Below are positions 402 to 46,799 of a stretch of 64,000 bases of DNA, piece after piece; position 1 is the first letter of the stretch; every line of letters begins with the position of its first letter. The position numbers were made by a program, and so were the translations under genes. This DNA comes from Prolixibacter denitrificans (GTDB taxonomy: Bacteria > Bacteroidota > Bacteroidia > Bacteroidales > Prolixibacteraceae). Below the pieces are notes generated by a model. It saw only the letters and a program-made list of their open reading frames with translations. It was not told where the DNA came from and ran no database searches. Location of the stretch: contig NZ_PYGC01000014.1 in assembly GCF_003014495.1 (NCBI RefSeq), forward strand, positions 1 to 64,000, read 5' to 3'.

Positions 402-569
402 CAGTTGCTACGCGTGCGGCATGCGTTGCTACACGTGCGGTGTGAGCTGCTACAGGTCGGTCGTGCGTTGCTTCAGGTGCGTAACGGGTTGCTACGGGTC
501 CGTTATGCATTTCTTCGTGTCAGGTGTGCGTTGCTACGCGAGGGTTACGCATTGCTACGGTTGTGTTAA
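402..569. repeat. Degenerate 21-bp tandem repeat, 8 units
   Basis: Eight consecutive units of exactly 21 bp begin at 402, 423, 444, 465, 486, 507, 528 and 549. The core is GCGTTGCTACxxGTGCGGT, with strongest conservation of TTGCTAC. There are no indels between units. The array starts about 20 bp after the IS end. Because 21 is divisible by three it reads open on the plus strand (421-699) as a seven-residue Cys/Tyr-rich repeat (RCYTCGV-like), but I see no ribosome binding site or family, so I treat it as noncoding repeat DNA. Confidence 0.8.
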
Positions 570-45463: not shown

Positions 45464-46210
45464 TTATTCCGTTTCGGTTGCTTCTTCCGGAGCCTCCTCT
45501 TCCTGGCTCTTACGGCCGTTCAGGGCGGCATAGGTTTTCCGGAGCTCGTCCATTTGTCCAAACAAGGTCGTCAGCACATCCGTGGGGGCAAAGTTCACCG
45601 CCTGCTCAATGGCCGTACAAAACTGCTCGTAGCTTTTAGCCGCCGTCGTTTTCAAACTGGTAGCCGACGGCCCGTTCTGAGCCTCATCGCTGTTGCGGGT
45701 CTTATACAGGGTATCGAATTCCGTATTCGCCGTTTCCAGTCCGGTGAGCATATCGGCTATCCCAATGGTAGCCGCATCGGCTTTGAGGGCCTCGTTGGCA
45801 TTGTATTTCCCCAGCATTTCGGCAAACACGCCCGTTTCGGTATTCATGGCCTTTTTATCCACGTCCCAGTAAGGCTCAAAAAAGCCCTTCAGGTTTCGAG
45901 CCGCCGTCTTCTTCGCTTCGTCGCGCCCCTTGATGTTGGTCGTGATGTTGCGTTTGATTTCGGCAAACCGGTCATCCCGGTCCTGATCGAGGTCGACCAG
46001 CTGTTGGGTTAGCATGTTTTTAGCCGGTTTGTTCATTTGCACGCCCATCGCCTCGTTATCGTTTATCAACTGCGTGAGCGTAGCTGCCGGAATGGCGCCG
46101 ATACTTTCTTTTACCGGGTTCGCGTACTCGATGGTCGATTTGTTGAGTGAAAACAGGTCGTTAATTTTCAAACGGGCAACATACAATGTTGAAAACAGTT
46201 TTTCATCCAT
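45464..46210 (-). CDS. DUF6261 family protein (248 aa)
   Basis: A soluble, mostly helical protein with no signal peptide or membrane segment: about residues 1-110 and 120-225 look like two helical bundles, and the tail is acidic (EEEAPEEATETE). I recognise it as DUF6261, a Bacteroidota-restricted family without known function. Its start (ATG 46210-46208) lies 4 nt after the stop of a 28-codon ORF that ends a chain of overlapping mini-ORFs, so its translation may be coupled to that chain. The GC-rich, even codon use is like the core genes and unlike the AT-rich genes just beyond the array. Confidence 0.85.
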   Translation of the reverse strand: MDEKLFSTLYVARLKINDLFSLNKSTIEYANPVKESIGAIPAATLTQLINDNEAMGVQMNKPAKNMLTQQLVDLDQDRDDRFAEIKRNITTNIKGRDEAKKTAARNLKGFFEPYWDVDKKAMNTETGVFAEMLGKYNANEALKADAATIGIADMLTGLETANTEFDTLYKTRNSDEAQNGPSATSLKTTAAKSYEQFCTAIEQAVNFAPTDVLTTLFGQMDELRKTYAALNGRKSQEEEAPEEATETE

Positions 46211-46214
46211 AATT

Positions 46215-46301
46215 TTATTGTTTTAGAAAGGTGATAAAGTTTGTTTGGTCTTCATTTCTTCCTGTTGAAATTTTCAGGAGGTCCGCGCGTCGCCATTTCA
46301 T
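46215..46301 (-). CDS. Terminal 28-aa mini-ORF of the array, directly before DUF6261
   Basis: It starts MKWRRADLLKISTG like the other array peptides, but the unit's ATGA stop/start has been changed, so the frame reads on (RNEDQTNFITFLKQ) to a TAA at 46217-46215, 4 nt before the DUF6261 start. It overlaps the preceding mini-ORF by ATGA (46298-46301). Within it an alternative ATG at 46254 opens a 10-codon frame (MKTKQTLSPF). Translation is inferred from the frame layout only. Confidence 0.45.
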   Translation of the reverse strand: MKWRRADLLKISTGRNEDQTNFITFLKQ

Positions 46302-46342
46302 GCTGTTGAAATTTTCAATGGGCTCATTCCTCGCCGATTCAT
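46298..46342 (-). CDS. Array mini-ORF (14 aa, MNRRGMSPLKISTA)
   Basis: Fourteen codons plus TGA. The start overlaps the stop of the upstream mini-ORF (ATGA at 46339-46342) and its own stop overlaps the next start (46298-46301). It shares the LKISTA end with its neighbours and differs in the middle residues. Expression unproven. Confidence 0.4.
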   Translation of the reverse strand: MNRRGMSPLKISTA

Positions 46343-46383
46343 GTCGTTGAATTTTTCAACAGCTCCATTCCTCGCGATTTCAT
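46339..46383 (-). CDS. Array mini-ORF (14 aa, MKSRGMELLKNSTT)
   Basis: Same design as its neighbours: ATGAAA start, variable middle, LKNSTT end (two changes from the consensus LKISTA), TGA stop overlapping the next ATG. Start overlaps the previous stop at 46380-46383. Expression unproven. Confidence 0.4.
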   Translation of the reverse strand: MKSRGMELLKNSTT

Positions 46384-46424
46384 GCCGTTGAAATTTTCAA
46401 TAAGCTCTCTCCTGACGATTTCAT
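46380..46424 (-). CDS. Array mini-ORF (14 aa, MKSSGESLLKISTA)
   Basis: Fourteen codons plus TGA with ATGA overlaps on both sides (46421-46424 and 46380-46383). Variable residues SSGESL, constant LKISTA. Expression unproven. Confidence 0.4.
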   Translation of the reverse strand: MKSSGESLLKISTA

Positions 46425-46465
46425 GCCGTTGAAATTTTCAACGGGTCCATTTCGCGCCATTTCAT
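46421..46465 (-). CDS. First complete array mini-ORF (14 aa, MKWREMDPLKISTA)
   Basis: The first unit that follows the consensus exactly; its TGA overlaps the next ATG at 46421-46424. Upstream lies an eroded unit whose frame 46479-46523 is also 14 codons (MKSNIRFRIEKRGC) but ends 13 nt before this start. Expression unproven. Confidence 0.4.
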   Translation of the reverse strand: MKWREMDPLKISTA

Positions 46466-46715
46466 GCCGTTGAAATTTTCAACAGCCCCTTTTTTCGATG
46501 CGGAAGCGGATATTTGATTTCATGCGGTCGCCGTGAAACCACAGTGTAGCCGGGCAAAGTGCCAGCATGCAGCTTATCCGTTCCGGGGCTTGCCGGTCAA
46601 TGAACGTAGTGACGGTTCGTCCATTCTGCACTTCATTCTCCACTAAATTCCTGCTGATTTTATCTGTCTGCTAAAAACCGTGTATTCAATATAAATTAGA
46701 AAATTAACCTATCCC

Positions 46716-46799
46716 AATTTTTTTGATGAATGTGCTAAATTTTTTGATGAACGTACGGATCTGGTATGTGAACGTACCGATCTGGTATGCGAACGGAAA
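46716..46799. repeat. Degenerate 21-bp tandem repeat, 4 units
   Basis: Units of exactly 21 bp start at 46716, 46737, 46758 and 46779; the first pair shares TTTTTTGATGAA, the second pair GATCTGGTATG. The same period as the array at 402-569 but a different sequence. Frames on both strands read through it with a seven-residue periodicity; neither gives a recognisable protein. Confidence 0.75.

Follow-up and report, generated by a model that had tools for sequence, protein, structure and literature searches.

A family of DUF6261 genes of Bacteroidota tied to four-turn tandem arrays, with matching arrays elsewhere in the same genome

Introduction

Iterons and other multi-operator arrays are helically phased protein sites that lie beside the gene of their likely binder and serve autoregulation. 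Iterons are the sites of Rep proteins and mostly repeat at about 20 bp. A second class of repeat, the REP/BIME elements, comprises palindromic extragenic repeats, in which the RAYT gene has its own type of repeat on its flanks and further copies are dispersed; RAYTs are transposases (PMC2817692, PMC3686654). The 464/PgRS elements of P. gingivalis are MITE-like with repetitive flanks and carry intergenic 41-nt tandem direct repeats at 10-20 loci per genome; by the same account BLAST matches to the repeats are confined to P. gingivalis, and no partner gene family has been reported (PMC4596501). LytTR promoters have 9-bp repeats separated by a 12-bp gap and placed about 8-10 bp upstream of the -35 element (PMC6193735).

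The window analysed here, a 64,000-nucleotide stretch of Prolixibacter denitrificans (contig NZ_PYGC01000014.1, positions 1 to 64,000), holds a locus that shares something with each of these. Like iterons, DUF6261 arrays are repeated, helically phased putative sites beside the gene of a likely binder, but the system has no Rep domain and its arrays also occur in trans beside terminators. The palindromic extragenic repeats, a gene with repeats of its own kind beside it and the dispersed copies recall REP/RAYT, whereas DUF6261 has no transposase domain and its repeats form helix-phased head-to-tail arrays. The period, the intergenic position and the number of loci recall 464/PgRS, also from Bacteroidota, but the present arrays are tied to DUF6261 and have units that bear no relation from one locus to another. 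Likeness to LytTR sites is limited to the promoter region of some DUF6261 loci and does not extend to the 41-bp array. Our literature searches found no description of the DUF6261-array association, 41-nt repeats alone being known from P. gingivalis; the mention of DUF6261 that was found concerns streptococcal daptomycin resistance. We rate the association of gene, cis array and trans array as matching no described kind.

Results and discussion

The array in the window

The DUF6261 gene (45464..46210, minus strand; Pfam PF19775, E = 1.5e-25) encodes an all-helical protein of 248 aa with a pI of 4.8. Upstream of it, on the same strand, lies a period-41 tandem array (46253-46497) far beyond chance expectation, which TRF calls with period 41 and 5.7 copies at 46253-46485 and which ends 42 bp before the DUF6261 ATG. 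Each of its six units contains a dyad. From the gene-nearest unit outwards these are GTTGAAATTTTCAGG (46264..46278), GTTGAAATTTTCAAT (46305..46319), GTTGAATTTTTCAAC (46346..46360), a second GTTGAAATTTTCAAT (46387..46401), GTTGAAATTTTCAAC (46428..46442) and a second GTTGAAATTTTCAAC (46469..46483), all five steps being exactly 41 bp. A preliminary description of this DNA had spoken of six exact 41-bp tandem units; the number and the spacing stand, the sequence identity does not, as the units show about 75% matches to their consensus. A CRISPR-like array was considered and rejected, the whole units being diverged copies of one another rather than identical repeats with unrelated spacers. Copies of the array are kept at the orthologous loci of two congeneric species (L070 in G001, L083 in G002).

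Short open reading frames within the array

Read on the minus strand, the array yields the mini-ORFs MKWREMDPLKISTA, MKSSGESLLKISTA, MKSRGMELLKNSTT, MNRRGMSPLKISTA and MKWRRADLLKISTGRNEDQTNFITFLKQ. All five internal junctions are ATGA overlaps and the last frame, MKWRRADLLKISTGRNEDQTNFITFLKQ, stops 4 nt before the DUF6261 ATG, just as the preliminary description had it. On this basis it proposed that 14-residue peptides are made through ATGA-coupled re-initiation, either as a peptide cassette or as a relay that sets DUF6261 translation. We now regard a translated chain as very improbable. The chain arises automatically, because with a 41-bp period any unit that holds ATGA gives an ATG followed, 42 nt (14 x 3) on and always in frame, by a TGA overlapping the next ATG. 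Among 56 related arrays, 12 have ATGA recurring at one register on the sense strand and 6 on the antisense strand, no commoner than the approximately 9.9 per strand predicted from base composition. The overlaps and open frames expected of a coupled re-initiation leader are not kept in the orthologues: the array is retained, and ATG junctions of the window are replaced by AAG/GTG in L070 (two of five lost) and by AGG/GTG/GTG in L083 (three of five). The last frame ends at -37 in both, as against -7 in the window, and its link to the DUF6261 ATG is gone. Unit lengths had been expected to stay at 41 plus or minus multiples of 3 with ATGA kept; related arrays have 42-bp or mixed 41/42-bp units, so that with the lost junctions the proposal falls on its own terms, and there are trans arrays with no gene following. 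The evidence favours what had been offered as its alternative, an array of palindromes in the DNA to which the frames are incidental.

Promoter and leader region

The region upstream of the array contains an inferred promoter-like sequence, TTGGGATAGGTTAATTTTCTAATTTATATTGA (46686..46717, minus strand), that is kept in the orthologues and common to DUF6261 paralogue loci. Canonical TAnnTTTG promoters were not found next to most DUF6261 starts. If the promoter assignment holds, the array would be transcribed as a leader. The stretch between the putative promoter and the array (46523..46685, minus strand) is non-coding and highly conserved in three species; substitutions in its small ORFs show, by eye, no codon bias.

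Four LytTR-site-like 9-bp direct repeats in 21-bp steps, CACATTCAT, TACGTTCAT, TACGTTCAC and TCCGTTCGC, occupy 46726..46797 on the minus strand. The same order, four such repeats and then a promoter-like TTG...TATATTGA near -480 to -510, recurs in the window's subfamily and in several paralogues. The repeat length, the step and the distance of about 8 bp to the -35-like TTG resemble LytTR promoters (PMC6193735). A LytTR-type score of at least 17/18, against a 9-bp consensus, is reached in 8 of 38 loci and in 1.3% of shuffles. LytTR-site-like 21-bp repeats are also seen in G000 at C5:37721, C3:264813, C4:97855, C8:209496 and other places; together with those at several DUF6261 loci they could form a regulon.

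Linkage to DUF6261 and the fixed period

Across Bacteroidota, 64 of 71 DUF6261 loci have an upstream tandem array. After removal of four duplicates, and with two period-46 arrays and one doubtful case not counted as arrays, the curated figure is about 57 of some 67 distinct loci. The expected linkage of array and gene is thus borne out, with the two co-oriented, but is not exclusive, as trans arrays without DUF6261 also exist. On rounded counts, 59/66 versus 5 in an estimated 1100 or so genes, an exact test puts p close to 1e-85. An unbiased census covering 1.2 Mb of G003 found eight 41/42-bp arrays, of which three go with the three DUF6261 genes in the surveyed DNA and the other five are orphans. 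The idea that only genomes with DUF6261 have 41-bp arrays had to be dropped: no DUF6261 is detectable in G013, and this genome has 41-bp arrays with TTTTTTAGTT...AACTAAAAAA dyads at about 1093633-1093832 and 1110309-1110555. A Fic-like gene has one of them immediately upstream, and others are near IS66-like and ImmA-like genes (names assigned by eye).

The period is locked. Among 322 unit spacings (four duplicated loci counted twice), 235 are 41 bp, 69 are 42 bp and 12 are 40 or 43 bp; hence 304 of the 322 equal four helical turns, the whole-turn spacing expected of a phased operator- or iteron-like array. The sequence of the units is free. Between paralogues the units are unrelated, the mean similarity of 0.38 for protein pairs below 35% identity being the null level. 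L086 and L063/L075 encode proteins that are 90-91% identical and have unrelated arrays (0.34-0.39).

The DUF6261 protein

The window's genome has seven DUF6261 genes and its congeners 9-14; elsewhere the family is sporadic (present in 11 of 41 relatives and in 6 of 297 genomes from the whole phylum). The proteins are acidic, with a pI mostly of 4.6-5.7. An AlphaFold2 model of the window protein has nine helices (pLDDT 87, pTM 0.53) and shows no clear DNA-binding motif, nor is a DNA-binding domain recognisable. DUF6261 is the sole consistent Pfam match; NCBIfam and PHROG give no credible match, the fold search gives none at E <= 0.001, and the PDB profile search returns weak helical hits (E = 0.017). 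A RAYT transposase was rejected, no such domain being detected by Pfam, NCBIfam, PHROG or the PDB fold search.

In the paralogues L063, L064, L071, L086 and L091 the C-terminal two thirds are nearly identical and the first ~55 residues differ more, a pattern that suggests gene conversion. Comparison of near-identical proteins with different arrays revealed no consistent positions that would set array specificity.

Matching arrays in trans

BLAST of the cis arrays against whole genomes identifies orphan arrays with a matching unit, typically 72-91% identical. Nearly all of 32 profiled trans loci match a DUF6261-linked unit at 0.53-0.82, above the permuted null (99th percentile 0.45, maximum 0.47), and mostly one from their own genome. 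Of the five orphans in the G003 census, four correspond to a cis type of G003 and one, at 0.47, to none. With these trans arrays that match cis units, the system has dispersed palindromic copies of the repeats beside the gene, as REP/RAYT does.

Three syntenic places have trans units that vary from species to species, each agreeing with the cis array of its own species. An array lies beside lpd in all four species, of the L063/L075 type in G000 and G001, the L086 type in G002 and the L091 type in G003, in each case the type that the species has in cis at its own DUF6261 gene of the same subfamily. A C1-peptidase gene flanks it on the opposite side in G000, G001 and G003; only the lpd side is common to G002. 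The second place (G000, G002, G003) likewise switches unit type with the species' cis type. Between phoH and mtaB, the array is of the window's TTGAAAATTTCAA type in G000-G002 and of the TCTGCCGTTCGCAGA type in G003, which is that of the G003 DUF6261 of the window's subfamily. The G003 unit here scores 0.557 to the L069/L092 type against at most 0.42 (the score is from the L069 profile; the L092 profile, of the same type with a 40-bp consensus, gave none). The G003 unit beside lpd is a hybrid, with an older half, CTCAGTTTCGG, and a new half resembling L091. G001 departs from this pattern: the unit of some of its trans arrays agrees with the cis type of G002 and not with its own.

Orientation is also constrained. 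Every orientable trans array between co-directional genes is antisense to them (17/17, at roughly nine independent positions). Of the other arrays, nine have convergent neighbours, six are ambiguous and none has divergent neighbours. For cis cassettes, the gene upstream lies on the other strand in 34 of 38 cases and the gene downstream in 23 of 35. Many trans arrays start just past a terminator-like palindrome of the neighbouring gene.

Within-genome matching with divergence between species is classic concerted evolution, and could reflect a minisatellite or mobile cassette of the 464/PgRS or REP kind that sits beside terminators, is homogenised in each genome by copying and has no dedicated reader. 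The terminator-adjoining sites, the single orientation, the 41-nt tandem repeats in P. gingivalis MITEs (PMC4596501) and the decoupling of array type from protein divergence all fit. However, trans and cis copies do not share flanks beyond the array units and dispersed terminator palindromes, so conversion would lack homologous anchors; some trans units are hybrids with one half following the new cis sequence, the dyads covary (see below), most DUF6261 genes retain an array, and unrelated units have the same period. We consider such a cassette unlikely.

A dispersed palindrome, AAGGATGTCATC...GATGACATCCTT, occurs in the 3' flanks of arrays (L243, L248, L249, L255) and also downstream of the DUF6261 genes in L062, L074, L091, L092 and L094. 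It is probably a terminator or REP-like element.

Dyads as DNA or RNA signals

The best inverted repeat of each array was found with Watson-Crick scoring only. Compared with column-permuted units, the dyads are enriched, with a mean z of 2.5 and with z over 1.5 in 59% of arrays; in about 40% of arrays no dyad stands clearly above the permuted null. Watson-Crick-covarying pairs, that is, those with more than one type across units, number 33, as against 17.6 +/- 2.9 in 300 shuffles (maximum 26). Arms are more conserved than the sequence outside them (0.95 versus 0.76) in 23 of 24 selected arrays, a comparison that is partly circular since the stems were chosen for pairing.

RNA hairpins, whichever strand encodes them, would be expected to prefer either G.U or A.C over the other. 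Both are depleted to the same degree (G.U 67 observed and 79 shuffled; A.C 97 and 112), and differences between cis and trans units show no bias to the G.U type (79, with 89 of the A.C type). Thus the tolerance of G.U over A.C expected of an RNA hairpin array is absent although covariation is present, and because the two are equally depleted the dyads look like DNA sites; this argues for a signal at the DNA level.

These figures bear on a reading in which the arrays act as RNA, the DUF6261 leader forming a row of hairpins or pairing with antisense units in the 3' regions of other transcripts. The promoter-like sequence upstream of the array is consistent with it, as are the joint change of cis and trans units and the invariable antisense orientation to co-directional neighbours, by which read-through RNA from the trans arrays would be complementary to the cis leader. 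The missing G.U preference, both inside dyads and between cis and trans units, speaks against it, and a period locked to 41-42 bp has no obvious RNA rationale. We judge an RNA element to be quite unlikely.

A proposed array-reading system

Our preferred reading, held with moderate confidence, is that the dyads are protein-binding sites set in helical phase and that DUF6261, or else a partner, reads such arrays both in cis and in trans. Dyad sites every 41-42 bp are four turns of B-DNA apart, and all would therefore face the same side of the helix. A DUF6261 locus would comprise an upstream promoter (LytTR-like in some loci), a leader, the array and the gene, with arrays of the same unit elsewhere in the genome adjoining terminators and antisense to neighbouring genes. 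Sequence comparison establishes the array and its link to DUF6261, the fixed period, the dyads, the agreement of cis with trans units and their common change between species, and the antisense position; that a protein binds, which protein it may be and that binding has a regulatory effect we infer. A dimeric, cooperatively binding protein would read the dyads in both settings; the resulting nucleoprotein filament would control DUF6261 transcription in cis, and in trans might block or insulate transcription or organise the chromosome. The mini-ORFs would be by-products of the period. DUF6261 itself is the natural candidate for the reader and a partner the alternative. Its candidacy is a guess from linkage, since the protein is acidic, all-helical and without significant fold relatives, and the unrelated arrays of L086 and L063/L075, in which array type does not track protein divergence, argue against it. 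Further points against the model are the G001 trans arrays that carry another species' cis type, the period-41 arrays beside a Fic gene in G013 and the share of arrays that lack a clear dyad.

More tentatively, and rather doubtfully, DUF6261 may found a family of array-bound proteins in which each paralogue, with its partners, recognises a private array sequence, giving each genome several parallel and rapidly re-specified systems. If so, the array sequence could drift freely while the four-turn spacing and the cis-trans match are kept.

The observations point to an uncharacterised gene-and-array system, in which a family of unknown function is almost always tied to tandem arrays of free sequence and fixed helical period, and matching arrays elsewhere change in step between species. 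They offer a direct handle on the function of DUF6261 and on how bacterial tandem arrays keep or change their sequence, and bear on how general a design four-turn phasing may be in Bacteroidota, where the 41-nt repeats of P. gingivalis had previously been noticed without explanation.

Arrays of a 21-bp period

Degenerate arrays with a 21-bp period, equal to two helical turns, were also observed, mostly intergenic and with unrelated sequences. The 3' end of a minus-strand gene (L126:7696-8337) for an apparently helical protein of 213 aa, with no Pfam match, adjoins a 21-bp array. One such array lies in the window (404-568) and more are found in G003 (852056-852244, 1305180-1305368, 2386482-2386683 and 2627402-2627620); they may be a sister design to the arrays of 41 bp.
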